19,830 bases of DNA from Deltaproteobacteria bacterium RIFOXYA12_FULL_61_11 (lineage in GTDB: Bacteria > Bdellovibrionota_F > JAHFAK01 > YA12-FULL-61-11). A program made the translations under genes and the position numbers. The stretch covers positions 522 to 20,351 of the forward strand of contig MGSU01000024.1 in assembly GCA_001799195.1 (NCBI GenBank). Reading direction: 5' to 3'. Shown here in pieces: positions 1,730-18,710 of this stretch; position 1 is the stretch's first letter; every line of letters starts with the position of its first letter. Under the pieces are notes generated by a model. The model did no database searches and was not told the DNA's origin. It saw only the letters and a program-made list of their open reading frames with translations.

Positions 1730-1761
1730 TCGCAGCCGGTGTGGCAAGACGTAGGTGTTTG

Positions 1762-1777
1762 TGGTACGGTTCTGGCA
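1762..1777 (+). promoter_or_regulatory. Possible sigma-54 (-24/-12) promoter
   Basis: The string TGGTACG-GTTC-TGGCA has GG at 1763-1764 and GC at 1775-1776, separated by the required 10 bases. Compared with TGGCACG-N4-TTGCA it differs at two positions. It would start transcription near 1788, just ahead of GGAG (1793-1796) and the lipoprotein ATG at 1803. It lies directly after a sigma-54 activator gene, which makes it attractive. The very short leader and the two mismatches keep confidence moderate. Confidence 0.45.
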
Positions 1778-1802
1778 TTGTCCGTTGCCGCTGGAGCCAG
1801 GT

Positions 1803-4394
1803 ATGCGCCGCCTCATCGCCTTGTTGCTGCTTACCCTCCTCTCCTGCATGCAGGAGGACCCCACGACAACCCCGCCCACCAACGGGCAAACCACCACCGG
1901 ACCGGACGGGGCTCCTGAGCTCGACCGGCAGGACACGCTGGTCCTGATCCGCTCCGAGGACCGCATCACCCTCGAGGACGGATCCATCGCGGTGCAGGTC
2001 GAGTACGACAACGGTGCGACCATGATTCTGCCGGTAGAGCAGGCCGAGGTGGGTCCACCGTTCCGCTTCGAGGACATCGGTGGTGAGGCTGTGCTCCAAG
2101 GCCTCTCCGAGGCCGGAGTTGCCCTGGCCCTTCCCTCGAACGCCGTGATCCTGGTCGCTTCCCGCGCCAGCGGCGAGTCCGAGCTCGATTTCCGGGATGC
2201 ACTGCTCTACCGGCTGCCCGCCACCGCCCTACCGGCTTCGTTCGAACCCGCAGCGGCCATCCCGGCCAACGCCATCCCGTTCGAACTCGCTGCTACGGCC
2301 ATCCCCTCCAATGCAATTCCCAGCAATGCCCTCCCCTCCTCGCTGATCGAAGAGGAAGCTGCACCGGTCTGGGCGGCCGAACTCGCCCCCGAGGCCGCCC
2401 TACCGGCCTCCTGGTACTTACAGCCGGAACCAGCCGTCGACCCGACCGATGACACGCCGGTCTTGTTACCTCTCCTCGTCCTACGAGAGAAGGAAGACCG
2501 CGTGATCAGCCTGGTCTGTGAGGCGGAGCGAGACGAGGAGGACTACGAGCTCACCTGCCCCGTGAGTGGCGCGATCACAGCGCCGACCGCCTACCTCCTG
2601 GTCGTCCTCGTCCCGTTCAAGGATTTCCGGGGTATGACCCTTGGGGCCGTTCCCGTGGCCGCCATGCACCAGGCTGCGGCCCTTGATGCCCCGAACCACC
2701 CTCCCAGGCTCGAGGTCCCCGAAGAACTCGAGGTGTGGGCCGGCCGCACCTCCTATCTGCGCCTGGCCGCTCTCGACGAAGACGGCGATCTGGTCGAGCT
2801 CGTAGCGATCGAGGGTCTTCCCGAGGACTTCACCGTGAGGAAGCGCAAGCATCTGTTCATTAAGCCGCGTCTCGATGAACCGGCGGCCGAGTATCCGGTC
2901 CAGGTCACCCTACGGGACCTGGCGGTACCGCCGGCCGAGACCGTGGCCGAGTTCACCCTCGTGCTGAAGAGCCCCGTGAGCTGGGCCCGGGTGACCGGTA
3001 CCAACTTCCCGACGGAGGTCTTCCAGCGGGACAATCTGGCCGTGCGCCCGGACGGCGGGGTGCTCATGGTCGGGCAGTTCTCCGGGGTGCAGGACCTCGG
3101 TTCCGGCTTCCCCAAGGCCATCCCAGCTCCCCCACCCGTGCAGGGTGACCCGAGCGGGGATACCGTGGTCCTCTCGGTCACCGACGGGGGGGACCTCGAA
3201 TGGTACCACGTTTTCCCCGGTCAGTACGGGCAACTTCAGGGCGTTGCTGCGGCCGGAGCCTCCTCGGCCGTGATCTTCGGCGGCCTGATGGGGCGGGTCG
3301 ACCTGGGCCGGTTCTTCGGCCAGGTCGAAGTCAATCTCCAAGGCAACCCACTCGAGTTCACCGCGCCGGACTCGGCCTTCGACGGGTTTATGGTCGAGTT
3401 GGAGGCCGGCCACGCCACTACGGGGCGTTCGCTCACGGGGACGAGTTTCGACCGGGTGGAGAACCTGATCGGTCTGACCGACGGCAGCAGGATCGTCGCA
3501 GCGAACGCGGTCAAGAGCACTGCCTGGAGCGATCAACCCTTTCCCAAGCCGCTCACCCTGAACTCCAGGCTCGACGTCCTGGTCAGCCGCTTCGACCAGC
3601 ACGGCGGTGTGGTCTGGACCTCTACCTTTGGCGGCGAGGGTGCCGAGCGGCTCAACGCCATGGCAGCCACGACCGAGGGGGAGGTCTACCTCACCGGCTA
3701 CTTCGATGGGACGGTTGTGCTCGAACCCTCCCCGGGCGGGGGGCTCGACACCGGGTATCCAACCACCCCGGACGGCCTGGACCTCTTCCTGGTCAAGCTC
3801 GACGCCAAAGGCAGCCTCCGCTGGAGCCGCACCTACTCAGGTGCCTCCAAAGAGATTGGAGTGGATCTCTTAGCCCTTCCTGACGGGAGCGTGGTGCTGT
3901 TGGGCTCGTGGCAGCAGGAACTCGTGCTCGTCGGAGAGGAACCGGCGGTCTCCGAGAGTACGACCTCCCTTGTCGACAACGCGGTGATCGCGCGCTTCGA
4001 CCGTGACGGCGGGCTGCTCTGGTCGAAGGTGATCGCCTGCAAAAAAATGGTCACCCCGCGCTCCCTGTCCACCCTCGACGATGGTCGCATAGCAATCCTC
4101 GGTACCTTCACCGGAACCTGCGATTTCGGTGCCGGCTTCGGGACCCAGGAAATCCTTGTCGGCGCAGGCCAGAATGACGTTTTCCTGCTCGAACTGGACG
4201 AGCAGGGCACGTATCTCGGCACGACCGCGTTCGGCGGGACCGGTAGCGACGTCGCACATGGCTTTGCCGGGTTCGACGGTGGGGCCTACCTCACCGTGGT
4301 ACTTGCCGGCGAGACTCCGCTCTCCTCGCGCTTTCCGGGACAGTCCGCTCCAGCCACCGGCCGTTACCAGACTCTCTTACGTATCGAGCGATGA
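1803..4394 (+). CDS. Outer-surface lipoprotein with Ig-like domain and SBBP-type beta-propeller
   Basis: The product is an 863-aa exported lipoprotein. ATG 1803 (GGAG at 1793-1796) gives a short signal peptide MRRLIALLLLTLLSC with lipobox LLSC and Cys15 as the lipidated residue. An in-frame ATG at 1755 would add 16 residues ahead of the signal peptide and is unlikely. Residues about 152-180 are a pentad repeat (AIPAN, AIPFE, LAAT, AIPSN, AIPSN, ALPSS). Residues about 300-390 resemble a cadherin/Ig-like fold, opening with HPPRLEVPEELEV. The C-terminal ~470 residues repeat the pattern 'W..tfgG.g.d....a...dG.vyl.G.f.g...f......D.fl.kld..G', typical of SBBP beta-propellers. Binding, adhesion or a structural role is plausible, but the function is unknown. 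It follows the response regulator on the same strand, possibly under sigma-54 control. Confidence 0.88.
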   Translation: MRRLIALLLLTLLSCMQEDPTTTPPTNGQTTTGPDGAPELDRQDTLVLIRSEDRITLEDGSIAVQVEYDNGATMILPVEQAEVGPPFRFEDIGGEAVLQGLSEAGVALALPSNAVILVASRASGESELDFRDALLYRLPATALPASFEPAAAIPANAIPFELAATAIPSNAIPSNALPSSLIEEEAAPVWAAELAPEAALPASWYLQPEPAVDPTDDTPVLLPLLVLREKEDRVISLVCEAERDEEDYELTCPVSGAITAPTAYLLVVLVPFKDFRGMTLGAVPVAAMHQAAALDAPNHPPRLEVPEELEVWAGRTSYLRLAALDEDGDLVELVAIEGLPEDFTVRKRKHLFIKPRLDEPAAEYPVQVTLRDLAVPPAETVAEFTLVLKSPVSWARVTGTNFPTEVFQRDNLAVRPDGGVLMVGQFSGVQDLGSGFPKAIPAPPPVQGDPSGDTVVLSVTDGGDLEWYHVFPGQYGQLQGVAAAGASSAVIFGGLMGRVDLGRFFGQVEVNLQGNPLEFTAPDSAFDGFMVELEAGHATTGRSLTGTSFDRVENLIGLTDGSRIVAANAVKSTAWSDQPFPKPLTLNSRLDVLVSRFDQHGGVVWTSTFGGEGAERLNAMAATTEGEVYLTGYFDGTVVLEPSPGGGLDTGYPTTPDGLDLFLVKLDAKGSLRWSRTYSGASKEIGVDLLALPDGSVVLLGSWQQELVLVGEEPAVSESTTSLVDNAVIARFDRDGGLLWSKVIACKKMVTPRSLSTLDDGRIAILGTFTGTCDFGAGFGTQEILVGAGQNDVFLLELDEQGTYLGTTAFGGTGSDVAHGFAGFDGGAYLTVVLAGETPLSSRFPGQSAPATGRYQTLLRIER

Positions 4395-5521: not shown

Positions 5522-5863
5522 TCACGGTCTCGCCCCAGGATAGGACGAAGTTTCCACGCAGAGTGCCTCCAGCCTCAAGGTTTCGACCCAGGACAGGAAG
5601 GAAAGGGCTGTGGAGTAGCGGGTGGTGATGGCCTGCAGACTGCCGCGGGGGCATTCCTCTTGGAGTTGGATATAGGCGCGCTCGACGTACTCGGTGTCGA
5701 AGGCAAAGCCGAGGATGACCCGTTCTTCCACCACGACCTCGACGGGCCGTCCGGTGCCCGATGGTACAGGGTAATCCATGCCGCTGCAGTGAACCTGGTG
5801 GATACTATAGGAGCAACTCAAGCCGCCCAAGATGCAGCTCATCAGGACAAGCTGCGCTTTCAT
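5522..5863 (-). CDS. Small lipoprotein, third of three tandem paralogues
   Basis: This 113-aa predicted lipoprotein starts MKAQLVLMSCILGGLSCSYS, with lipobox GLSC. A longer in-frame start at 5980 would put 39 basic residues before the signal peptide and is rejected. The ATG (5863-5861) overlaps the TGA of the upstream gene (5862-5860) as ATGA, so translation is probably coupled. The sequence LQEECPRGSLQ...EALC carries two cysteines exactly 30 residues apart, as in both upstream neighbours. The preceding ILGFAFDTEYVERAY matches FFGFSFDNDFLDELE of the second gene. I do not recognise a named family. It ends convergently with the PhnD-like gene, 28 bases away. Confidence 0.8.
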   Translation of the reverse strand: MKAQLVLMSCILGGLSCSYSIHQVHCSGMDYPVPSGTGRPVEVVVEERVILGFAFDTEYVERAYIQLQEECPRGSLQAITTRYSTALSFLSWVETLRLEALCVETSSYPGARP

Positions 5864-6177
5864 CGCTCTACGCCCTGTTGCAGGCAGTATCCTTTCGCGA
5901 TGACACGTTCGGTGTGTGCGAGAAGGTAGAATCGCCGCTCGTGTTTGGTCAAAATCCCGGCGACCTTGCCGTTCGGGCATTGTGCGGCCAGCTTAGGTTC
6001 GAGTTCGTCCAGGAAATCGTTGTCGAAGGAAAAGCCGAAGAAGATGAATTTACTGACCTCTGCCTCGATGCGATGCTGCCGTTCCTTCGGAATGGTGGTG
6101 AGGGAGACCGTGGCAAGTTGAGCGCAGCCGACGAGAGCACAGGAGAGTAAGACCAAGGACAAATAGCATCGGTACAT
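5860..6177 (-). CDS. Small lipoprotein, second of three tandem paralogues
   Basis: The product is a 105-aa lipoprotein, MYRCYLSLVLLSCALVGCAQ, with lipobox LVGC. ATG 6177 has GGAG six bases upstream on the minus strand and is preferred over an ATG nine codons earlier. Its core is FFGFSFDNDFLDELEPKLAA, followed by QCPNGKVAGIL and a final GYC, with 30 residues between the two cysteines. It sits 14 bases downstream of the first gene and overlaps the third by ATGA, so the three form one operon. The two invariant cysteines suggest a periplasmic disulfide. The function is unknown. Confidence 0.82.
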   Translation of the reverse strand: MYRCYLSLVLLSCALVGCAQLATVSLTTIPKERQHRIEAEVSKFIFFGFSFDNDFLDELEPKLAAQCPNGKVAGILTKHERRFYLLAHTERVIAKGYCLQQGVER

Positions 6178-6191
6178 GAGGGACTCCGCGA

Positions 6192-6608
6192 TCAAGGTGC
6201 ACAACGACCGGTAAGGTGGACTATTTCTCCGCTGATGACCGGGTAGCGGCGCATCTCGCGCACCAGCATGAGCGAGGTGACGTTACCGGAAGGACATTGC
6301 TGGCGCAACAAGGCCTCTATCCCATCAGCATAGGTATCATCCAGGACCGGATTCCCGGTCCTGGGCCCCATCTGGCTGAGTTCGATGATGAGCTGGATAA
6401 AACTGGCTGCTTTGCGTGCATCTCCCTTCAATGCGGTTCGAGCGATGAAACCCGCCTCCCGGGTGCTGACCCCGAGTTCCGATACTTTGATATCTATCGG
6501 GGTCGACTGATCGCGGCCACGGGTGTCGATGTCACCGTACTGGACGTGATGCACCATGGCACATCCGTGCAGTACCAAGAACGCGCCAAGCGGCAGGATT
6601 CGACGCAT
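6192..6608 (-). CDS. Small lipoprotein, first of three tandem paralogues
   Basis: This 138-aa lipoprotein has the signal MRRILPLGAFLVLHGC (lipobox VLHGC) and is led by a good sigma-70 promoter at 6639-6666. The N-terminal half resembles the TRL-like family of small bacterial lipoproteins (HHVQYGDIDTRGRDQSTPIDIKV), though this is a weak match by eye. The C-terminal part, LLRQQCPSGNVTSLML...LTGRC, has the same CPxG and the same 30-residue spacing to a final cysteine as the two genes after it. It is longer than its paralogues because of the middle segment before the CPxG motif. The function is unknown, and an envelope location is likely. Confidence 0.8.
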   Translation of the reverse strand: MRRILPLGAFLVLHGCAMVHHVQYGDIDTRGRDQSTPIDIKVSELGVSTREAGFIARTALKGDARKAASFIQLIIELSQMGPRTGNPVLDDTYADGIEALLRQQCPSGNVTSLMLVREMRRYPVISGEIVHLTGRCAP

Positions 6609-6679: not shown

Positions 6680-8050
6680 TTATTGCGGGATCGGACCGCC
6701 GGTGCGCGGGCGGGGCGTGGGGTTCGGGTTGTTCTCGCCCTCCTTGGGTACCTTGACCGGTTGGTAGGTGAAGGGCTTGAACTCTTTGTAGGCCGGGTCG
6801 GTGTAGAGCTTGTGGCAGGCCTCGTACTGGTCCTGGTCCATCCACACTTTTGCCGCCTGCACCGGGTCCTTCACGTCCTCGGCGATTTCGGCGAAGAGGT
6901 GGTAGCACTCCCAACTCGCGGTCTCGATGCAGTGGCACTTGCTGCCGTAGTCGCACAGCTTGTCGCCGTAGCAGTTCTCGACCTTGCCGTGCGGGCAGAA
7001 GGTCTGCCAGTGGTCGGTCTTGGCCTTGGCCGCGTCGAGGACTTCATAGGCAGTGTAGTTGTACTTGGGATGCTTGGGGTGACAGAAGGCGTTGGTCTGA
7101 CCGCCGAGCACGGCGAAGCACAGCGGCTGTACCCCGCCGGCGCAGGGGCCGTTCTTCTTGCTGGTGTAGTCTTTGGGTGTATAGACGTAATAGGTCGGAA
7201 CATAGACCTCGGTGAACTGCGGCGGTTGGGGCATGGGTTGCGGCATGGGCTCGGGCATGGGCTCGGGCATCGGTTCGGGCATGGGCTGCGGCATGGGCTG
7301 CGGCTGGGTCGAGGCAGCGCGCTTGAGCTGGGCGGCGAAGAGCACCTCTTCCTGTTTGCCGTCGCCGGCGCTGTTTTTAAACCGCAGTACCACGCGGTTG
7401 ACCTTGAAATTGTTGGGGTTGAAGTTGGTGAGCAGGGCAGAGCCGCCGCGGGTGGCGAAGCTGAAGTCGCTCTTCTCGAACTCGAGCTTGGTGTTGGTGT
7501 AGCCCAGGATGGCCACCTTGTACTGGTCCCCCTTCACGAACATGCGGACCTCTTGGAGGTTCGTCGGTACGGCCAGGGTGTATTCCACCTCGAGATCGAA
7601 GTCTGGGCGATTGCGGTACACGCGCAGGGCAGGATCTTCCGGGCTGAAGGCCGTGGCGTCCTCGGCCTCCTTGAGTTGGGTGAGGTACTCTTTCTCCATC
7701 TCAATCACGCGCTGGGGTTTTTGCCCGCTCTTCTTGAGTAGATGGATAGCCTTGAACACGCCGTAGTCGATCAGGTCGCCGTAATCATAGCTGAGGAGGG
7801 TCTTGTAATGGGCTTCGAAGACCCCTTCGTCGAGCACGATGAGGTGATTGGATGTCGGGTTTGCCTTGATCTTGAGGACGTTGCCGTCAATGATCACGGC
7901 CACATTGGGGTTGACCATGGCCGGCGTGGTTTCGGGCACGTTGACCTTGATCTCCCGAAGGTAGTTGGCAGGCACAGGCTCGGTCATGGCTGCCCCGGCC
8001 AGTTGGCCGGCAAGCAGGAAACAGCACAGCACGGTGAAGAGAACCTTCAT
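6680..8050 (-). CDS. Secreted protein with Met-Pro repeat linker and cysteine-rich C-terminus
   Basis: This 456-aa exported protein begins MKVLFTVLCCFLLAGQLAGA, a Sec signal peptide. The ATG at 8050 is preceded by GGAGGAGG. An ATG eight codons earlier is less likely. The mature N-terminal ~220 residues contain beta-rich segments (VAVIIDGNVLKIKANP; DFDLEVEYTLAVPTNLQEVRM; KVNRVVLRFKNS) of no family I recognise. Residues about 248-275 are a PMPQ/PMPE repeat encoded by a 12-bp tandem repeat. Residues about 300-415 contain ten cysteines (PC, LC, FC, FC, NC, LC, KCHC, EC, AC), enough for five disulfides. A Pro/Gly-rich tail ends the protein. It could be a surface or matrix protein, but the function is unknown. 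Before the element inserted, this was probably the first gene beyond the tRNA and its terminator. Confidence 0.85.
   Translation of the reverse strand: MKVLFTVLCCFLLAGQLAGAAMTEPVPANYLREIKVNVPETTPAMVNPNVAVIIDGNVLKIKANPTSNHLIVLDEGVFEAHYKTLLSYDYGDLIDYGVFKAIHLLKKSGQKPQRVIEMEKEYLTQLKEAEDATAFSPEDPALRVYRNRPDFDLEVEYTLAVPTNLQEVRMFVKGDQYKVAILGYTNTKLEFEKSDFSFATRGGSALLTNFNPNNFKVNRVVLRFKNSAGDGKQEEVLFAAQLKRAASTQPQPMPQPMPEPMPEPMPEPMPQPMPQPPQFTEVYVPTYYVYTPKDYTSKKNGPCAGGVQPLCFAVLGGQTNAFCHPKHPKYNYTAYEVLDAAKAKTDHWQTFCPHGKVENCYGDKLCDYGSKCHCIETASWECYHLFAEIAEDVKDPVQAAKVWMDQDQYEACHKLYTDPAYKEFKPFTYQPVKVPKEGENNPNPTPRPRTGGPIPQ
7230..7301 (-). repeat. 12-bp tandem repeat encoding PMP(Q/E)
   Basis: Six units of GGCATGGGCTCG-like sequence (plus-strand view) lie head to tail at 7230-7241, 7242-7253, 7254-7265, 7266-7277, 7278-7289 and 7290-7301. 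Two are identical to GGCATGGGCTCG and two to GGCATGGGCTGC. The unit is a multiple of three, so copy-number change would lengthen or shorten the linker without breaking the frame. Confidence 0.9.
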
Positions 8051-8207: not shown

Positions 8208-8223
8208 GATGGCACCTCAGGGA
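8208..8223. other. Distal attachment site (16-bp repeat of tRNA 3' end)
   Basis: GATGGCACCTCAGGGA is identical to 13737-13752. Leftward of it lies the tRNA terminator, which supports this being the displaced original tRNA 3' end. Similarity stops immediately on both sides of the 16 bases. Confidence 0.85.
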
Positions 8224-8364
8224 GTGGAATGATTGTCATAACAATAATGAAAATATTGGCATATCGTGAATATCGAAAATTGGCTTGAATGGGTACTTGT
8301 ACTAACAGGGGAGGGTAGTGGGTTCAAATCACAATCAAGGACGGCCTTAGCCTCTCACGCGGAT
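8224..8364. other. AT-rich distal att arm, with integrase arm-like site
   Basis: I see no gene in this stretch. It is AT-rich just inside the distal att site. It contains CTTGTACTAA at 8296-8305, the same 10-mer and orientation as at 13614-13623 near the proximal att site. That is consistent with an arm-type integrase binding site about 75-90 bases from the core. GGGTTCAAATC at 8320-8330 resembles a tRNA T-loop, but the flanking stem does not pair. Confidence 0.5.
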
Positions 8365-8487
8365 CTACCTCGAGCGGGTCATCTCGAGTACCTTGGACCA
8401 GTTCGGCGCGGATCGGTTCGCGAGGTCGAGTAGCCAGCGACGGCCGTTGACGTTGCGGTACCAGCCAAACAAGTCGAGATCGTGCAC
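8365..8487 (-). CDS. Possible small ORF, 40 aa, GTG start
   Basis: A minus-strand frame open from 8529 to a TAG at 8367-8365 reads like protein (...HDLDLFGWYRNVNGRRWLLD..., then NRSAPNWSKVLEMTRSR). The only standard start is GTG at 8487-8485, with only a weak GAAGAAA upstream. The open frame begins just inside the 3' end of the 72-aa gene in a +1 frame, so coupling or frameshift is possible. Coding-like amino acid composition is the main evidence. I recognise no family. Confidence 0.35.
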   Translation of the reverse strand: MHDLDLFGWYRNVNGRRWLLDLANRSAPNWSKVLEMTRSR

Positions 8488-8521
8488 TAGGCGGTATTTC
8501 TTCGAATGAAACCAGCTCGGA

Positions 8522-8740
8522 TCACTTCTTCACCCTCCGGCGCGGTTTCTTGTCCGGAGCGTCGAGCTCTAATTCCCCGCGGACTACCAACTCCTCGGCG
8601 GGCCGTTCGTCCTCGACTTCGACGAAATACTTGGCCGCGCTCTCGGAAACGTCGAAGGGCATCTCCAGAGTCATGGGAGGCCAGACGCGGCCGTGGTGAT
8701 TTAGTTCGACGGTGTTCATAAAGCGAATCCTCTTGGACAT
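8522..8740 (-). CDS. Small hypothetical protein of the element, 72 aa
   Basis: This 72-aa protein runs from MSKRIRFMNTVELNHHG through PPMTLEMPFDVSESAAKYF to a basic tail (KKPRRRVKK). ATG 8740 has GGAG about eight bases upstream. A longer frame to 8821 has no support. The opening resembles small phage proteins of the type 'KIRFLKNVELNHxGxVxxPG', so an origin in a phage head or regulatory region is possible. That is an impression, not an identification. It is the last well-supported gene before the distal att site. Confidence 0.6.
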   Translation of the reverse strand: MSKRIRFMNTVELNHHGRVWPPMTLEMPFDVSESAAKYFVEVEDERPAEELVVRGELELDAPDKKPRRRVKK

Positions 8741-8742
8741 GG

Positions 8743-8838
8743 TCAATACTCCATCTCGTTGGTGAACATCGCCGCAAGGTCGTCGTTGTCGTCCCAGTCC
8801 TCGGTCGGCCATTCCGAGCATCGGAAAATGGTTATCAG
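8743..8838 (-). CDS. Possible small acidic ORF, non-standard start
   Basis: The minus-strand frame ending TGA at 8745-8743 encodes ...IFRCSEWPTEDWDDNDDL..., ending FTNEMEY, only two bases before the next ATG (8740). The frame is open back to a TAG at 8901-8899 but contains no ATG, GTG or TTG before the acidic segment. CTG at 8838-8836, with AGGA upstream, is the best guess. It may be a genuine small phage-type protein, a remnant whose start was lost, or a chance frame. Confidence 0.3.
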   Translation of the reverse strand: MITIFRCSEWPTEDWDDNDDLAAMFTNEMEY

Positions 8839-8873
8839 ACGGTAGATAGATCCTACCTCGAGCGGGTGGCGTC

Positions 8874-9014
8874 GGTCAACGTGATCGCCGGGTTTGACCT
8901 ATGGCAGGGGGGGGAGGGGTACAAGAATCGGTCAGGATATAACCCCACCTGAACCGGCCAACTCGGCGGGCTTTTTTCGCCTCCTGGGGTGCAGGGTGGT
9001 GGTCAACGTGATCG
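8874..9014. repeat. 14-bp direct repeat pair GGTCAACGTGATCG
   Basis: Exact copies lie at 8874-8887 and 9001-9014. The right copy covers the stop codon of the terminase-small-like gene, and the left lies six bases from a copy of the 15-bp repeat (8853-8867). The bases between hold a G8 run and a plus-strand terminator. The repeat may mark a past duplication or recombination event. Confidence 0.6.
8954..8977 (+). terminator. Plus-strand intrinsic terminator without an obvious gene
   Basis: CCgGCC-AACTC-GGCgGG (8954-8970) forms a five-pair stem with one G-G mismatch, followed by C and T6 (8972-8977). It points rightward, against all genes of the element. It may block antisense transcription into the terminase-small-like gene or end a short plus-strand RNA. 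On the minus strand it has no T-tail. Confidence 0.6.
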
Positions 9015-9479
9015 TGGTTTTTTTCCCAGCGCTTCGATCAACACCTGTTCAAGTTCGAGGTCGCTCATCTTGTGCAATTCTTCTTTGGTCGGGTGGTGAC
9101 GTTCTTCATGCTCGACGACGACGGCCGGTTGCTTTAGCACGTCGCCAAGGATCAGTTCGGCGGCTTTGAGCGCAACGCGGGGGTCTTTGGCATCGAGGAG
9201 AGATACCATCACCTCGGCGGCTTTGACGCGGGCGGCGGTCAGGATTTCGACGGCGCTTTGTGACATGGCGGCTTCGATATCCTCGCGTGCTTCTTTGTAG
9301 TCCAGCCTGGCGCGGGTCTTCTCGACGGCCGAGGTCGAGAGCTTGAGCAGCGCGGCGAGCTTCGGAGACGAGAGCGAGGGGTTCTCTAGCTCACAACGGA
9401 GCACGCGGCGGACGTTGCGCGGTAGATTTCCGGCATGTTCTTGCAATGTTCGTCCTAGATCGAGGTCAGCCGGTTTCAT
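9003..9479 (-). CDS. Terminase small subunit-like DNA-binding protein
   Basis: The 158-aa protein has an N-terminal HTH (residues ~25-58: RCELENPSLSSPKLAALLKL then STSAVEKTRARL). A long helical segment follows, with the SAVEILTAARVKAAEVMVSL...DPRVALKAAELILG pattern seen in phage terminase small subunits. A charged tail (HPTKEELHKMSDLELEQVLIEAL) ends it. In phages TerS recognises pac/cos DNA and recruits TerL. No TerL lies nearby, as in satellites that redirect helper packaging. The ribosome site before ATG 9479 is weak. The gene is 140 bases downstream of the primase gene with a possible promoter between. The alternative is a generic HTH phage regulator. Confidence 0.6.
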   Translation of the reverse strand: MKPADLDLGRTLQEHAGNLPRNVRRVLRCELENPSLSSPKLAALLKLSTSAVEKTRARLDYKEAREDIEAAMSQSAVEILTAARVKAAEVMVSLLDAKDPRVALKAAELILGDVLKQPAVVVEHEERHHPTKEELHKMSDLELEQVLIEALGKKPRSR

Positions 9480-9510
9480 CGGTAACCATACAAGTCAATG
9501 GTTGCCTTGC

Positions 9511-9539
9511 ATCGTAGCGTATATGGCCTCTGCCGTCGA
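9511..9539 (-). promoter_or_regulatory. Weak candidate promoter of the terminase-small-like gene
   Basis: On the minus strand TCGACG (9539-9534) and TACGAT (9516-9511) are separated by 17 bases, each matching consensus at four of six positions. The start codon lies about 31 bases beyond the -10. The site falls in the only real gap of the replication-packaging gene run. Confidence 0.3.
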
Positions 9540-9619
9540 GATAGGGGCATGGTTTCGATCAGAGGGCGGGGAAGTAGGGGGCGATAGGAAACGGGGCTTC
9601 TGGTGGCCCTGGTGCGCTG

Positions 9620-10738
9620 TCACGGTAGCGGAAGACCGGGGCCGGTGAAGATGTATCGGTTCGCCATGCGGTTCGGTGTCGGCGGTCGCACAACTGAAAG
9701 CCAGTGGTAGGTCTTGAGAAGCAGCAACAGTTTTGCAGCGGCGGCATGACTCACGTCGAGCAGCTCACCGGCGTCTCTACAGCACAGCCAGAAAACGCCA
9801 TCTACGGCGAGCAGTTCGTTGACGGCCCATACTAGCGCGGCGGTTCGTTTCACGGTGGACCAGGGCGGCGGAACCAAGGGACAGGACGGCGCCAACTTCA
9901 GCGCCTCGGCCTTCCACTCAGTGCCGGGGTTTTCGACCAGTACGAGCTTGCGGTAGAACTCGGCTTGGTTCAAGTCGCGGTCCTTCGTTTTGATGATCGG
10001 TACGGCCAGAGTATACCATCGGTCGAAGATGTCGGCCACCTCGGGAGCGGCCGGTTCGTAGTACCGACGTACAGCTCTAGCCAGAGTCCACAGCCCGTGG
10101 TCTCGCTGTCCCTCGGCGGTCGGAACGAATGGAGCAACGTCGAAGTCGCCGGGGGGGTGGTAGCGGTCCATACTAACGTCTTTCAGAAGTCTTCTGGAGT
10201 CCTCCGGTGGCTCAGGAGTCTTCAGGAGTCTCTGTAAACAGAACCCAGCTTCAACTAGGTCGAGCACCTCCGGCACCTGGTCAACGTGCGCTGGAAATGG
10301 GTTGATCCATCGGTAGGAGGCGCCGGACGGGTGCAACGACGGGGGTACAAGAATGTAAGAACCGGAAGCTCGTAGCTCTCCGTCATCGAGGTTGCAGGTC
10401 TTGGCGCCGGGGTGGCGTGCGTAGACGTGAAAGCCTCTACCTGTTCGAACGGTCGGCAGGGTTGCGGCAAGGCCGGGGTGCACGGTGGCCCACTTCTCGA
10501 AAATGCCCTCCACGTCGAAGTCGCGGCATACGAGATCGCCGGAAACGGGACCAAGGATCACCGCGAGACCGGTGACGCTTCCCCCGCTGGGGCCGGTGAA
10601 CCAGTGCTTCAACTCGGCTGGGGTTGCTCGTCTTTTCTGGTACTCGCGCCAAGAACAGCACGCGGCCTTCTCATGCGTGGGTATGATGCTCAACCCACGG
10701 GCCTCGAGATCGAGCGCAGCGGCGAGGAAGTCGGTCAT
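9620..10738 (-). CDS. Primase-polymerase (AEP/Prim-Pol fold) with C-terminal winged helix
   Basis: This 372-aa replication protein probably primes element DNA synthesis. The Prim-Pol domain shows FLAAALDLEARGLSIIPTHE, the metal-binding pair in CRDFDVEG (Asp73, Asp75), TVRTGRGFHVYARH with the conserved His104, and RASGSYILVPPSLHPSGASY. The C-terminal ~70 residues look like a winged helix (VWAVNELL...GELLDVSHAAAAKLLLLLKT...). No helicase domain is fused, so a host or helper helicase must be used. I choose ATG 10738 because it overlaps the upstream stop as ATGA. Starts further upstream (TTG at 10822, ATG at 10780) lie inside the previous gene and precede the domain by nonsense-like basic residues. 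Confidence 0.85.
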   Translation of the reverse strand: MTDFLAAALDLEARGLSIIPTHEKAACCSWREYQKRRATPAELKHWFTGPSGGSVTGLAVILGPVSGDLVCRDFDVEGIFEKWATVHPGLAATLPTVRTGRGFHVYARHPGAKTCNLDDGELRASGSYILVPPSLHPSGASYRWINPFPAHVDQVPEVLDLVEAGFCLQRLLKTPEPPEDSRRLLKDVSMDRYHPPGDFDVAPFVPTAEGQRDHGLWTLARAVRRYYEPAAPEVADIFDRWYTLAVPIIKTKDRDLNQAEFYRKLVLVENPGTEWKAEALKLAPSCPLVPPPWSTVKRTAALVWAVNELLAVDGVFWLCCRDAGELLDVSHAAAAKLLLLLKTYHWLSVVRPPTPNRMANRYIFTGPGLPLP

Positions 10739-11052
10739 CGGGTGCGGTATGCGTGGAGTGGACAAGATTCGGTTCCGCATCGTCTCACGTCGGCGGCGAC
10801 GAACCCCACACAAGAGAGGCAAAAGGTCTTCATCGCAGCAGCTCGCGATTTTCCGGCCACGGCGCGAAGATATTGCCGACGATGCGCCGGGGGGTATTGT
10901 TGGGCCATCCGCTGGATTGCATCAGATGGACCCTCTGAGGGGGTTCCTGCGGCATCAGAAACGGGCGAATTCTGATCACCGGGGTCTTGGGTCCCCCCTC
11001 CGGGATTTTCACCGGTTTGGCCTCCGTCGAGGCATCCTACAGCGTCTTTCAT
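10735..11052 (-). CDS. Small phage-type zinc-ribbon-like protein
   Basis: The first half of this 105-aa protein is Gly/Pro/Asp-rich. The C-terminal part, AAMKTFCLSCVGFVAADVRR and then CGTESCPLHAYR, carries Cys78-x2-Cys81 and Cys92-x4-Cys97. This matches a small family common in phages and satellites (pattern 'A.r..C..C.gg...ev..C....CplypyR'), thought to bind zinc. The exact role is unknown. Its ATG (11052) overlaps the stop of the AlpA-like gene and its TGA overlaps the primase ATG, so the three genes are coupled. A large frame lies on the other strand here, but the cysteine motif and the two ATGA junctions favour this one. Confidence 0.75.
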   Translation of the reverse strand: MKDAVGCLDGGQTGENPGGGTQDPGDQNSPVSDAAGTPSEGPSDAIQRMAQQYPPAHRRQYLRAVAGKSRAAAMKTFCLSCVGFVAADVRRCGTESCPLHAYRTR

Positions 11053-11360
11053 TTCTTCCCCCTGGTCGAGGTCCTCGCGGGTTCGGTCTTCTTGACGGTC
11101 TTGGTCCTGGGTTTCATCGGCAAGGGTCCGGTCTGGTAGGGGAGGTTCGCCAAGAAGGCCAGTACGTCGGCGCCTTTGAAGGCGACGGTGTATGCCCCCA
11201 GCTTGACCGGCCGGATCGCGATGGTTCCGGCGGCAATGCCCTCGCGGAGCTTCGTCCTACCCATCGGCACAAGAGCGAGTAGCTCTCGTTCGCGGATCAG
11301 GGTCTCAGGTAGCAGGCGGAACCCTTCGGGGAGTACGCGGATCTTTCTGGTCTTGGGCAT
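11049..11360 (-). CDS. AlpA/excisionase-like HTH regulator
   Basis: In this 103-aa protein, residues ~20-72 follow the AlpA/MerR-type winged-helix pattern: ETLIRERELLALVPMGRTKL...GTIAIRPVKLGAYTVAFKGADV, with LAFLANL closing it. AlpA-type proteins activate integrase or excision and satellite replication genes. The C-terminal 25 residues are basic and probably disordered. ATG 11360 has GGAG seven bases upstream; an earlier in-frame ATG at 11402 would overlap the promoter. The gene heads the operon AlpA-like, zinc protein and Prim-Pol, under a strong promoter at 11393-11421. Confidence 0.75.
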   Translation of the reverse strand: MPKTRKIRVLPEGFRLLPETLIRERELLALVPMGRTKLREGIAAGTIAIRPVKLGAYTVAFKGADVLAFLANLPYQTGPLPMKPRTKTVKKTEPARTSTRGKK

Positions 11361-11392
11361 GTTCAGTCTCCAATGTGATCGAACGTGCTTGC

Positions 11393-11421
11393 AAGATATC
11401 ATCTGAATGCAATACTGTCAA
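11393..11421 (-). promoter_or_regulatory. Strong sigma-70 promoter of the replication operon
   Basis: On the minus strand TTGACA (11421-11416) and TATCTT (11398-11393) are separated by 17 bases, with an extended -10 TGA just upstream. Transcription would start near 11386, about 26 bases before ATG 11360. It is the best promoter within the element and is flanked upstream by repeated TTATGATTA sites. Confidence 0.8.
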
Positions 11422-11434
11422 TATAAACAAAGAC

Positions 11435-11459
11435 TTATGATTATTTATGATTATGATAC
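11435..11459 (+). repeat. Iteron-like repeats TTATGATTA in the AT-rich control region
   Basis: TTATGATTA occurs at 11435-11443 and 11445-11453, 10 bases apart, with a degenerate third copy TTATGATAC at 11451-11459. They lie about 15 bases upstream of the replication-operon -35 box, in the most AT-rich stretch of the element. One-turn spacing suggests a protein-binding array, either a regulator site or part of a replication origin. The gap 11361-11514 holds nothing else that I can see. Confidence 0.55.
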
Positions 11460-11514
11460 TTGCGCTCGTGCTTGTGGCAGTAAGGCGCGGTGTGTGTACG
11501 ATGAAAAAAAATGA

Positions 11515-12312
11515 TTATTTGTGCTTTTTCTTGATTTGAAATCCTACTAAGAGTCCTCTCTTGCGAAGGTTCGTTGCAACGTTGCAAAGATATTCCTCGG
11601 AATAGCCCACCAGGCGAGACGCTGCCGTGATTGTCGCTGCTTTGCACCCCTCCTTGATAGAGCCGAACTCCCCTTGGTTGAGCCACTCAACAAGGTAGCG
11701 CTTCATGGGTTTCAGGCGTTTCAAGTCGGCCGGTACCGGGTCGGTCGGGGGTGCGAAGGATGGGGACAGTTCTTTATACACACGATCAGCGCTCGCAGCT
11801 AAAGCCGCATACTTGGTTTCGTCGGCCGATCTTCCCAACTCGATCAGCGCATGCTGAATCAATTCGCGTTTCAGGGGTCCCCCTGCCGGTAGATGTTCTC
11901 CCTCGGCGAACCTGACCAACCGAGCAAGGGCCTCGAATGCCAACCGCTCGGCCTCGCAGAACCGAGCGCGGTCCCGTTCGGGCAGGGCTTCAACGATTCG
12001 CCGGTGCGCCTCCTCATCGCGTTTCGGAATGTCGCGAATGACAATTCTCTTCACGTCTTCGTTGTCAGGGGCCAGCCCTCCGACCAAGGAAGCCAGCTCT
12101 TCCAGGGTCAACGCGGACAAACCACGCCACCTTGACCAGACATCTGGGGGCATCCATGGCGGGCTTCCAAAGACCGTCACCGGTGCCGCTGTCGTCGTCA
12201 ACTTGTTCCAATCCATGCCGGGCTTGATGGTTCCGGTTGCCGTCGTCCTGCCCTCGGAGATCGGTTCCACGGTCTTCGGTTCCGGTGCTTCGGTTGTCGG
12301 TGTCGTCTTCAT
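11515..12312 (-). CDS. Element protein of unknown function with C-terminal HTH-like region
   Basis: I do not recognise this 265-aa protein. The N-terminal ~45 residues are Thr/Pro/Glu-rich and likely disordered. A helical middle (ALTLEELASLVGGLAP; DEEAHRRIVEALPERDRARF) follows. The last ~60 residues (KRYLVEWLNQGEFGSIKEGC, ASRLVGYSEEYLCNVATNLRKRGLL) look like a winged-helix DNA-binding unit. ATG 12312 overlaps the integrase stop as ATGA, with GGAGGGG seven bases upstream inside the integrase gene. The two are therefore one transcription unit. A T8 run follows the stop, but no strong GC hairpin precedes it. A repressor of the element or a replication accessory protein are reasonable guesses. 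Confidence 0.7.
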   Translation of the reverse strand: MKTTPTTEAPEPKTVEPISEGRTTATGTIKPGMDWNKLTTTAAPVTVFGSPPWMPPDVWSRWRGLSALTLEELASLVGGLAPDNEDVKRIVIRDIPKRDEEAHRRIVEALPERDRARFCEAERLAFEALARLVRFAEGEHLPAGGPLKRELIQHALIELGRSADETKYAALAASADRVYKELSPSFAPPTDPVPADLKRLKPMKRYLVEWLNQGEFGSIKEGCKAATITAASRLVGYSEEYLCNVATNLRKRGLLVGFQIKKKHK

Positions 12313-13559
12313 ACTTGTTCCCCTCCATCTCGAATCCAGGGCGGCGGCCCACCTCGCAACTCGTCGAGCAGGTCTGCCCATTGCTGCATCACAACGCGCC
12401 GGTCGTCGATGAACTCCTCTCGAGCGTATGTGTGACCGAGCGGCCCTCGCGCGACATGACCTAGTTCATGCTCCAGGATGTCGGGGAGGGCTTTGAATCT
12501 TTCGCGGGCGAGGGTCCGAAAACTAGCACGGAACGAATGCGCCACCACGATATCGGGGGGCAGACCTACCGACCGCAGCGCGGCCACGATGGCGGCATCT
12601 GACATCGGACGGTTATTCTTGCGCTGGCCGGGAAAGACCCATTCACCTCCGCCGGTCAAAGGGAAAAGTGCTTTGAGCAACGCGAGAGCTTGCCAGGAGA
12701 GTGGTTTATCCAGGAAGCGCGGTTCTTTGCCTTTCTTGGTCTTCGAAACCTTCAATTTCCAGGTCCCTGTCTCGAGGTCGAGGTCTTTCCATTTCATCTG
12801 CCGCAATTCGCCCGGCCTGGCTGCCAAGTAAGGGGTAAGCTGGAGCGCCACGCCGACCACGCAGCCGCCTTTATGGCACGCCATAGCGCGAAGTACGGGG
12901 GCGAGTTCTTCGGCCTTTACAGGCGCCGGAAAATGGTCTTGCGGACGTGGTGTCAGATCTTTGGTCATGCCTCTGGTGACGTCGGCGGTGACCATTTCCA
13001 TACGAACGGCATATTGTAGCGTGCTCGAGATCGCGCGTAGGGCTCGATGAGAGGTTTCGATCTTGCCGGTTTCTTGGATCTTTTTGATCACCGGCAGAAG
13101 ATCACGATAGCGCAGGTCTGCCACGTTGCGATTTCCGATGCTGGGTTGGACGTCACGTTCGATGATGCGCTGAATGTTGTTGGTATAGCTCTCAGACCAA
13201 CTCGAAGAACGGTTCTTGATCCAGGCGGCGAAGACATCTTTGAAGGTCTCGCCTCCCACCACTTTTGCCAGAGTGCGGGCTTGCCTCCGATCGGCTACAG
13301 GGTCATGGCCGGATTGGAGCTTGCGCAGCAGTTCACCTGCTCGCAATCTTGCTTCCCTCAAGGTGACATCCGGCCAACTGCCAAGACTGATTCGAGTGGT
13401 CTTGCCGTTGCGGGAAAATCGGTACCGCCACCATTTCCCTGTGATGGTCACCTCGAGCATGAGACCGGGGCAAGATGCGTCGAGCGCATAGGTGCTTTTT
13501 TCGGTATGGGGCAGATCTTCAACAATTCGTTCGGTCAAGGGTCGTGCAGTCTTGGGCAT
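12309..13559 (-). CDS. int: P4-type tyrosine integrase
   Basis: This 416-aa site-specific recombinase would integrate the element at the tRNA 3' end. An N-terminal arm-binding domain (residues ~1-95, with GLMLEVTITGKWWRYRFSRN and ISLGSWPDVTLREAR) is followed by a core-binding domain (~105-200) and the catalytic domain. Active-site residues are present: Arg248 (AARPGELRQMKW), a Lys near 273-275 (SKTKKGKE), His341-Arg344 (HSFRASFRT), His368 (LEHELGH) and Tyr378 (GHTYAR). The length is normal for P4 integrases. ATG 13559 has no clear ribosome site and overlaps one arm of a perfect 12-bp inverted repeat, suggesting tight control. The gene lies 180 bases from the tRNA and reads away from it, the classic arrangement. 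Confidence 0.95.
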   Translation of the reverse strand: MPKTARPLTERIVEDLPHTEKSTYALDASCPGLMLEVTITGKWWRYRFSRNGKTTRISLGSWPDVTLREARLRAGELLRKLQSGHDPVADRRQARTLAKVVGGETFKDVFAAWIKNRSSSWSESYTNNIQRIIERDVQPSIGNRNVADLRYRDLLPVIKKIQETGKIETSHRALRAISSTLQYAVRMEMVTADVTRGMTKDLTPRPQDHFPAPVKAEELAPVLRAMACHKGGCVVGVALQLTPYLAARPGELRQMKWKDLDLETGTWKLKVSKTKKGKEPRFLDKPLSWQALALLKALFPLTGGGEWVFPGQRKNNRPMSDAAIVAALRSVGLPPDIVVAHSFRASFRTLARERFKALPDILEHELGHVARGPLGHTYAREEFIDDRRVVMQQWADLLDELRGGPPPWIRDGGEQV

Positions 13560-13655
13560 TTTTAGTACAACTTCGGGGGTGGTTGTGGCCTCGTCGGGTC
13601 ACCTGTACCCTATCTTGTACTAAAAACGTCCAAACTTCAATAAAACTGCCTGTAC
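13559..13655. repeat. 12-bp inverted repeat and TGTAC sites upstream of the integrase
   Basis: TTTTTAGTACAA (13559-13570) and TTGTACTAAAAA (13615-13626) are perfect inverted copies, 44 bases apart; the first overlaps the integrase ATG. Further TGTAC cores lie at 13604-13608 and 13651-13655. The 10-mer CTTGTACTAA recurs at 8296-8305 near the other att site. They could be integrase arm-type sites that also repress the integrase gene, or operators of an element regulator. The rest of 13560-13738 has no gene that I can see. Confidence 0.7.
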
Positions 13656-13736
13656 TTCATTGGCTTGATTTTGATTGCTTTCTGAATGAGATCAAGAGGG
13701 TTGTGGCCTTCCCTGGCCCTGAAAAAAAGAGGAAGA

Positions 13737-13752
13737 GATGGCACCTCAGGGA
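13737..13752. other. Proximal attachment site within the tRNA 3' end
   Basis: GATGGCACCTCAGGGA is identical to the distal repeat. It covers the 3' side of the acceptor stem, the discriminator base and part of the T-stem of the tRNA. Integration therefore keeps a functional tRNA. Confidence 0.88.
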
Positions 13753-13812
13753 TTTGAACCCCGGACACTGCGGATATGAGCCGCATGCTCTAACCACCTG
13801 AGCTAAGGTGCC
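13739..13812 (-). tRNA. tRNA with CAU anticodon (elongator Met or lysidine-type Ile2)
   Basis: On the minus strand the gene folds fully: acceptor GGCACCT/AGGTGCC, D-stem GCTC/GAGC, anticodon stem TGCGG/CCGCA with loop CTCATAT (anticodon CAT), variable GTGTC, and T-arm CGGGG-TTCAAAT-CCCTG with discriminator A. CCA is not encoded. Position 1 pairs with 72 and the anticodon stem lacks three G-C pairs, so it is not the initiator. Met-elongator and Ile(CAU) cannot be separated by eye. It is the integration target of the element. Confidence 0.93.
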
Positions 13813-13928: not shown

Positions 13929-16900
13929 CTACTCCTGGTTGAGCCCGGCATTGGCGGTCAGGGTGTCCCCATCCGGGCGGGACTGGTCGTAGAGCAATCC
14001 CACGCCGGCGATCGGCTGGTCGCACTCGATAAGGACGCTACCGTTGAAAGAAGCTGCGTTGATCCGTAGGTTGGCCAAGGGGCTTTGGGTCAGGTCGGTC
14101 CTGACCTCGACCAGAGCGAAGTCGCCGCGAGGGACTTCGGAAAGGGTACTGCCGAGGATACCGCAGATGTTGCCGTCGCCGCAGGTCGTATCGACATAGG
14201 TATGGCGGCACGAGGTGGGGCTGGCTCCGAGATTGACATACTGGTAACGACTGTTCCAGGTGGCGTGGCCGCCCTGATCGAGCGAGACCGCTTGCACGAT
14301 GAGCAACTGCGTCGAAGTCGAGGGGAGACCTGGGGCATTGTAGGTCGCGCCGCCGCCCTGGCCTGGGGTGCGGCTGTCTTCATTGACAGTGCAGGCGACC
14401 TCGCCGTTCGAACTGGTCACCCTGGCGAAGCCGGTTGTTCCCTCCTGACCCGCGATGGCCGTGGCATGGAAGAGGAAGCTCTGCCCGGGAGCGAGAGACT
14501 GGGTTTTGACCGTGCTCACGAGGTTCCCGCCTGCCGTGGGCCGCAGTAGGATCTCGGCGCGAACCTCGGTTGGTACGGTGCCGAGGTTCTGACAGGCCAG
14601 ACCTGATTGATAGGCCTCGTGCTTGATGAAGCGCGGTAGGATGAGTTCGTCGTCTCCGCGTGGAACCCCTTGGAATGCGAAGAAAGCCGGGGTTTCAACG
14701 GAATTATTGTAGAGGAAGACCGAGGCCACGAGGGGCAAATCGCCTTCGATAACGGCAGAACCGTTGAAATCCCCGTCGACGATCGAGGCGAGTTCCAAGA
14801 TCACCGCGCTCCACGGCGGCAGGTCGTGTTCCACTGTCCAAAAACGTGGATCCTGCCCTGGGGGGTCCCGGAACGTAATACTGATGGCGTTGGGTTGATC
14901 GGTGGCGTTCTGGACCACGAGGTACGAGCCGAACAGGGCAGTTCCGCCGGTCAGGTTGACCACCTGGGTGGCAAAAAAGTCGGGTGCGGCGCCATCCTCC
15001 GGGAATGCCGAGGCTGAGGCTGTCCTCACCGTAGCAGCGCCAATGGGTGTCTGGGTGTTGTAGGAGCAGGTGATGGGTTGGCCGGCCGAGGGCGTGAGGA
15101 CGAGGGCGGCGGCCGAGTAGCCGGAGGCGGCCATACGGCTGCCGATGGGGTCGCTCTCCGTACCGGTGAACCACAATTGTGTGGCCTTTGGCGCGAGTAC
15201 GGCGCTGACGAAGGAACCGAGCGACTCGCCCTCTGGATCCTCGCCGATCGCGGCCGGGTACAGCTCCACCATCAAGGACTGAGCGACCGTTCCCGAGTTG
15301 GTACAGCTCACGCCGCTCACGAACGCTTCGCTGGGGCCGGGGCTCTCCGCGGCCGGGGATTTCAGCACGAGCGGGATTAAGACCCGGTTGTCCGGTGGTT
15401 CGATCGGGCTGATCGCCACGATTCCGGTAGCTGTCTCGGCCAGGGTGAAGGTGAGGAAACCGCCTTGCACCGAGACAGGCAAGGCCGCCCCATCGAGGGT
15501 CACTCGCAGGTTCGAGGCGAATTCCGCGGCGGCGACCCTGAAGAAGGCTGCGGCATCGCCCTGCCAGGTGAAGCTCACGGTTCTACCATGACCGAAAGTC
15601 TCGGGGGGAGGTTCGAGCGTGACCGTGTAGGGCACAGCGGTGTCGGCAGTGAAGGCCAGGTCGAGCTGCGCATCGCCCAATCGGGCGTCGTTGAAGGCGT
15701 GGCTTCCGGTCAGACCGGCCAGGTGCATACGCGGTGAAAGCCGCGGAAGGTCGAGGCTGGGGTAGAGACCGAGTAGGCCGCGTAGGAAGGTTTCAGCCAA
15801 GGCCAAGGACTCGAGGTAGATGGCGCGGTGGCTCTCGAAGAGATGTGGCGAGTAGTCGGCGGCGACGAAGGATTGGCCCCACAGCGGAGTCACTGCGAGC
15901 TGGGCATAACTCTCGGTCAGGAGTTGGATCGCCCTTGGTCCGCTGCCGTGCCGCAGCATGGCCGTGAGCTGCTGGCCGACCGCGGCACCATAGAGACCGG
16001 AGCCGTGCCAATCCGGTCGCTTGATGCAAGGATGTACCCCACCGTCGAGCGGCGGCTGATCCTGGCGTGCCACGGACAGTAATGAGCCGTCGTCGCTGAT
16101 GAAATCCTCGAAATGCGAGCTCAGGCCTGTGCGCTCGGACTCATTGAGCAGCCCATCGGGCTCCAGCAGACCGAACACAGGCTGGAAAAAGCGCGCCGCG
16201 GTCGTGTCTTCCACCTCACCCGGCCAGAAGGGATCGTTCCAGGTGCGGTCATAGCGGGAGGTGGCGCGGTACCAGAGCTCGCCGTAGGACCAAGCGCTGC
16301 GCAGAGCACTGGCATTGGCCGTGGCCAGGGTTCGGTGGTCTCGAGGAGGTTCTAGGCCCAGCGAGGTGTAGAATTCGGCCAGGGTCGTGTGGGCTTCGTA
16401 GCGCCGGCCGTTCAGGTCCGGGACGATGGCATTGTAATAGCGCACGAAGTGTTCTCGACATTCCGGGATGTGGTTGAACTCGTACAACTCGGTGTCGTCG
16501 CCGAAATCGGTCAGCATCGCAGCACCGGCGGCGAGGTCCTCGGGCCTGTTCTTGAGGTCTGCCCAGTTCGCCTCGGCCTCGAGTTTTGCAAGGACGGTCC
16601 GGCGCAGCTCGGGATTGGCCGGATCGGCATCGGCTGGCTGGGCGAGCAGCAACTGGTCCCCAGTCGCGGCCATATATTCGCGCACTAATCGAATAAGCGA
16701 ATAGCGTTGCGCGGCATAGGGGATAGGCAGAGAAGTATCGCCGTCGCCGCCCCAGTCGGTGCGGAACTTGTCGCGGTGGCAGTAGGGTTGGAGTTGAGGG
16801 CCGCTGTAGGCGCGGCAATCACCCAGCGTGGCCAGGAGCTCACCGAGGAAACGCCGTTGGAAGAGTGGATCGGCCAGGGCGAGCGCCAATTCCATGCCTG

Positions 16901-18395: not shown

Positions 18396-18710
18396 GTCTG
18401 TTCCTCGAAGGAAGGTCGTGTAGTGCGGACCGAGGTGGCGTAGTGGACGTTCCATGCAGAGCATTATGTCGTAGGACCAAAATATTGTCTTGTACTCCTC
18501 ATGGTATCCCTTCAGTCTCGGGGGGATTGCTAATAGTTCCTGTAACCTCGTAGGGGTGGCGCCGACGGGGGACCCCCGCCACGCGCAAGAATGAGCATGG
18601 TGGGGGCGACCGCAAGGATGCGGACCTCCAAGCGACGCGCAGGATGCAGCGGCGTCGGTGTGTGAGGCGACAGGACCCCTTGCCCCCCACCAAGACTGAA
18701 CTAATACTCC
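18396..18710. other. Intergenic region with GC-rich inverted repeats, possible structured RNA
   Basis: No supported gene lies in these 315 bases. Nested complementary segments occur: GGTGGGGGC (18599-18607) with GCCCCCCACC (18682-18691), enclosing hairpins CCGCA-AGGA-TGCGG (18610-18623) and CGACGC/GCGTCG (18633-18657). A separate stem GTGGCG/CGCCAC (18556-18582) encloses GGGGGACCCCC. No T-run follows on either strand, so these are not ordinary terminators. TACTCCTCATGG occurs twice, at 18494-18505 and 18705-18716. Transcription from the gene at 18711-19544 would pass through this region. Confidence 0.35.
18463..18491 (-). promoter_or_regulatory. Candidate sigma-70 promoter of the 1488-aa lipoprotein gene
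   Basis: On the minus strand AAGACA (18491-18486) and CATAAT (18468-18463) are separated by 17 bases. The -10 matches at five of six positions and the -35 at four. The leader to ATG 18395 would be about 60 bases. Confidence 0.45.

Follow-up and report, generated by a model that had tools for sequence, protein, structure and literature searches.

The three small genes A, B and C described here represent a new family of lipoproteins, conserved as a set of three and ordinary in anatomy. This defines a so far unannotated family, with three orthologous branches that are kept as an ordered operon across phyla and with OmpA-fused relatives. Searches of Pfam, NCBIfam, PHROGs and the PDB sequences gave no significant match to the family, in agreement with an earlier sequence-only reading of the locus, which had noted that no function was known for these proteins. 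The genes and their upstream region are located as follows in the window, i.e. the whole stretch of 19,830 nucleotides that was analysed:

6666-6639, minus strand: promoter-like site TTGACA-16-GATAAT upstream of gene A, 11 of 12 matches, as compared to 0.4 chance sites in the scanned region
6608-6192, minus strand: gene A (P1), 138 aa; lipobox LHGC16; cysteines C105-x30-C136
6177-5860, minus strand: gene B (P2), 105 aa; lipobox LVGC18; cysteines C67-x30-C98; in the model a minimal beta-alpha-beta-beta domain
5863-5522, minus strand: gene C (P3), 113 aa; lipobox GLSC17; cysteines C71-x30-C102; same domain as B

The codon-position GC of the three genes agrees with coding on the minus strand. For gene B, the likely start is the ATG at 6177, 14 nt past A, rather than the TTG at 6204. 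The motifs reported previously are all present: the pattern L-x-x-[QE]-C-P-x-G occurs as LRQQCPSG in A, LAAQCPNG in B and LQEECPRG in C, the spacing of 30 residues to the final cysteine is exact in each of them, GFSFD in B and GFAFD in C correspond to the shared G-F-[SA]-F-D, and the stop codon of B overlaps the start codon of C as ATGA. Gene A carries, in addition, a family-specific insertion with MGPxTGxP upstream of its Cys-pair domain C105-C136. The description as envelope lipoproteins in one operon holds as well, with a homologous trio in which each protein has a lipobox. C has a poor lipobox (GGLSC), with C17 aligned to the lipobox cysteine of its orthologues; moreover, the signal peptide and the lipobox cysteine are aligned in every family sequence with an intact N-terminus. 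Lipidation of all three proteins is predicted from these sequences. The upstream region had been described as containing a clear sigma-70 promoter: the site is there, but the chance expectation leaves a sigma-70-like promoter plausible rather than proven.

The three proteins are homologous paralogues, as judged from their alignments. The local alignment scores of B with C and of A with B were not reached by any of 20,000 shuffles each, whereas the pair A and C is weak if taken alone (207 of 20,000 shuffles reached the score). When the orthologues were included, profile-profile comparison gave E-values of 6e-14 for A and B, 1e-20 for B and C, and 8e-9 for A and C. A search for further copies in the genome that contains the window, which is 87% complete, did not detect a fourth one.

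To which bacteria the window belongs was judged by rpoB only: the nearest sequences are from metagenome-assembled genomes (MAGs) labelled Myxococcales and delta proteobacterium (66-65%), with the Myxococcales MAG as the best match (66%); a 16S rRNA gene was not found in the window's genome. A search with a profile built from the three proteins detected the same operon in the phylum of this best match: in seven of its 377 genomes the genes are side by side, with a best E-value of 6e-23. Five of them have the complete set in the order A-B-C; in a sixth (G699), B and C are present and A is truncated where the contig ends, and in the seventh (G670) only C and B, whose reading frame is disrupted in this assembly, can be seen, with A not visible. 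In the phylum of the second-nearest rpoB match, five of 395 genomes carry one or two copies, which we call group D (E 1e-11 against the ABC profile). In two of these genomes, one D copy continues into an OmpA domain (PF00691; E 1e-24 and 1e-22). The fused genes, L231 9276-9965 and L232 8733-9455, join the Cys-pair domain to the OmpA domain via a proline-rich linker.

Elsewhere, the searches were negative. The trio genes are absent from the one other species of the window's phylum that was examined, and among 386 genomes that were used as relatives, almost all of them members of other phyla, there are only chance matches. Gene B as the only query had no match in genome contigs, plasmids or phages, nor had the trio profile in IMG/VR; a search of plasmids with a relative's gene C was negative as well. 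Four candidates (L004, L007, L114 and L115) were dismissed as other frames or other genes: L007, from the other species of the window's phylum, is NuoG, L114 is located on the opposite strand of an SBBP gene, and L115 contains internal stops.

Two lines of evidence argue that the three genes have been separate for a long time. First, the arrangement itself is conserved: the 4-nt ATGA overlap of B and C is found in seven of eight operons including that of the window, and the eighth has a 3-nt gap. Second, in a maximum-likelihood tree the copies group by operon position rather than by genome. Clades A (100/100) and C (100/99) are well supported, with A, C and D all at 100/99 or better, and B forms an unresolved middle group. 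In line with this, the mean identity is 0.39 for the same position across genomes as compared to 0.26 for neighbours within one genome. This clustering implies that the duplications behind A, B and C are ancient. The sequences thus suggest that the duplications predate the split of these phyla, or that the operon travelled as one unit; in both cases, they contradict the local gene-family expansion that had been proposed.

The cysteine pair is the most constant feature of the domain. Both cysteines are kept in all 30 family sequences, with a spacing of 29-32 residues, and a glycine is found at position +2 or +3 in 29 of them. The shared CPxG, although present in all three genes of the window, is not invariant in the family, since the proline after the cysteine is kept in 20 of the 30 sequences. 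The insertion with [MFW]GPxTGxP is specific for gene A and is present in all seven A sequences. With respect to the conserved disulfide of the sequence-only reading, it is the pair that is conserved, and the bond between its members is putative.

An AlphaFold model of B, built on a three-row alignment, is of medium confidence, with a pLDDT of 63 overall and of about 78 over residues 61-100. It predicts a strand (34-46), a helix (55-66) and two further strands (70-83 and 87-100). C67 directly follows the helix and C98 is close to where the last strand ends, positions that make a disulfide between the two plausible. In each of the three proteins, the helix-end cysteine is the one in the L-x-x-[QE]-C-P-x-G context. 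For A, which was folded from its single sequence, the model is too poor to interpret (pLDDT 45), but its last helix ends before the cysteine and two strands follow, where they are expected. In VIA-align, the best match of the B model was the DUF74 protein 3qkb (Z 7.5, rmsd 3.2, 79 aligned residues), followed by the YbjQ structures 1y2i (Z 6.1) and 1vr4 (Z 6.0), the secreted Salmonella protein STM0082 (2jna, Z 5.1) and dodecins (about 5), all of them in the range for which the tool warns that a match may reflect no more than a common arrangement. RcsF itself is not among the 50 best matches listed. Foldseek of this model against BFVD and the PDB gave no match at E 0.001. In this medium-confidence model, B appears nearest in fold to YbjQ, DUF74 and DUF1471, the class of RcsF; DUF1471, RcsF, YbjQ and DUF74 have been grouped as one fold (PMC4092069).

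We suggest that A, B and C may be three subunits of a single lipoprotein complex in the outer membrane, which would face the periplasm near the peptidoglycan and support or monitor the envelope, an explanation that we prefer and to which we assign slightly less than an even chance. Each protein would consist of a small beta-alpha-beta-beta domain with one closing disulfide and would hang from the outer membrane by its lipidated cysteine. B and C would be translationally coupled so that the trio is made in step, and the three proteins would assemble on the periplasmic face. Several observations are in agreement with this model: The fixed gene order and the near-universal coupling of B and C suggest synthesis in step and assembly into one complex. 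In E. coli, the absence of an aspartate at position +2 after the lipid cysteine points to the outer membrane by the Lol rule. None of the family sequences with an intact N-terminus has such an aspartate, and sorting to the outer membrane is predicted accordingly by this rule. Finally, the OmpA-fused relatives place the Cys-pair domain next to the peptidoglycan. Other observations weigh against this model: the mirror-tree correlations among the three proteins are weak and, with seven genomes, not significant, no gene neighbour common to all operons was found, A is not visible in G670, the fold model is of medium confidence, and the OmpA fusion is confined to the outlying group D and absent from the trio. 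The trio makes a good candidate for a complex in the envelope of Myxococcota-like bacteria, in which little is known about the biology of the outer membrane.

The trio might also be an envelope-stress sensor like RcsF, in which the disulfide-closed domain reports damage to a signalling partner in the inner membrane. The matches of the model to YbjQ, DUF74 and DUF1471, which suggest a fold class in common with RcsF, as well as the outer-membrane lipoprotein anatomy and the existence of OmpA-fused relatives fit this idea. We consider it unlikely, however: the surroundings of the operon contain no conserved signalling gene, IgaA/Rcs-like or other, and the RcsF model matches one of 19 relatives at an E-value of only 0.093. 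Moreover, RcsF is an outer-membrane lipoprotein with more than one disulfide in its periplasmic domain (PMC4092069), a network that compares to the one conserved cysteine pair of the trio.

It is somewhat more doubtful that the three proteins are distant tandem members of the phage Bor lipoprotein family (PF06291) and provide surface protection. For comparison, we used proteins of the Bor family, which came from 19 of 386 diverse genomes. They resemble the trio in their small size and, where they have the two cysteines, in the placement of these at the helix end and at the end of the last strand, two of them (L095 and L098) contain the string C-P-S-G-N as in gene A, and they likewise occur in tandem pairs. 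Such pairs are L096 with L113 and L097 with L112, in two genomes. The profile comparison sets the FG...C-P-x-G stretches in register, and the score of BC against Cys-Bor exceeds those of all 150 column shuffles (147 of 150 for ABC). Yet no family member matches PF06291 even at E 1, hmmsearch with a Bor profile gives an E-value of 1.7 for B, and the profile-profile comparisons with Bor (E 0.001-0.035; 0 to 3 of 150 shuffles as high) reach probabilities of only 1-19%. In addition, the trio lacks the long hydrophobic hairpin seen in Bor, and 30 residues separate the cysteines as compared to 34-36 in the Bor proteins counted. Kinship with Bor is thus unproven, a lead from sequence comparison rather than a membership.

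The trio of the window is accompanied by a PhnD-like protein (PF12974), an SBBP-type lipoprotein, a cysteine-rich secreted protein and a small integrative element at tRNA-Met. The cysteine-rich protein (6680-8050), which has a PQPMPEP repeat and matched no family, is encoded upstream of the trio on the same strand. The lipoprotein (1755-4394) combines similarity to SBBP-like beta-propellers with a run of AIPxNAIPSNA repeats. At 13929-18464, a predicted lipoprotein or secreted protein of 1511 aa without a Pfam match is encoded. The element of about 5.5 kb occupies 8208-13758 at the tRNA-Met gene (13739-13812, minus strand) and contains:

13559-12309: tyrosine integrase (PF00589)
10822-9620: Prim-Pol (PF09250)
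8208-8229 and 13737-13758: att sites, a 22-nt direct repeat with 20 of 22 positions identical, the second over the tRNA end

In the relatives, the neighbourhood might point to proteins with an accessory role in membranes that bear isoprenoids or pigments (retinal, carotenoids). Two of the seven genomes have a gene for a bacterial rhodopsin near the operon (PF01036; E 1e-39 and 1e-40; L229 475-1266 and L227 12953-13735). In one of them, a BCD dioxygenase that forms retinal (PF15461) and a hydroxylase are encoded between rhodopsin and operon, and in a third genome the neighbouring gene, tail to tail with the operon, encodes YceI (PF04264). No such neighbours were seen among the genes examined in the window and in the other four relatives, and we regard an accessory role of this kind as improbable. 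The repeated proximity to rhodopsin and carotenoid genes also hints at a new three-subunit outer-membrane lipoprotein complex serving pigment- or isoprenoid-rich envelopes, which we judge slightly more improbable still. The initial proposal of a local duplication, in which a lineage-specific lipoprotein would have been copied recently, would agree with the lack of copies in the other species of the window's phylum and, besides chance matches, in the 386 genomes, but is hardly tenable because tree and synteny refute it.

Compared with known systems, the trio would share with RcsF, DUF1471 proteins (YhcN, BhsA), YbjQ and DUF74 the small mixed alpha+beta envelope domain, as modelled for B; these proteins have no sequence match to the trio, which consists of three co-encoded paralogues, and DUF1471 lacks its cysteines. 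The Bor proteins have in common with the trio the lipobox, the helix-end cysteine followed by a glycine-rich turn, the cysteine at the end of the last strand and, in some members, CPSGN, whereas the match is below any significance threshold and the trio is a conserved three-gene operon. The trio differs from the Pal-type OmpA-domain (PF00691) lipoproteins by being devoid of the OmpA domain, which follows the Cys-pair domain in two relatives of another phylum.
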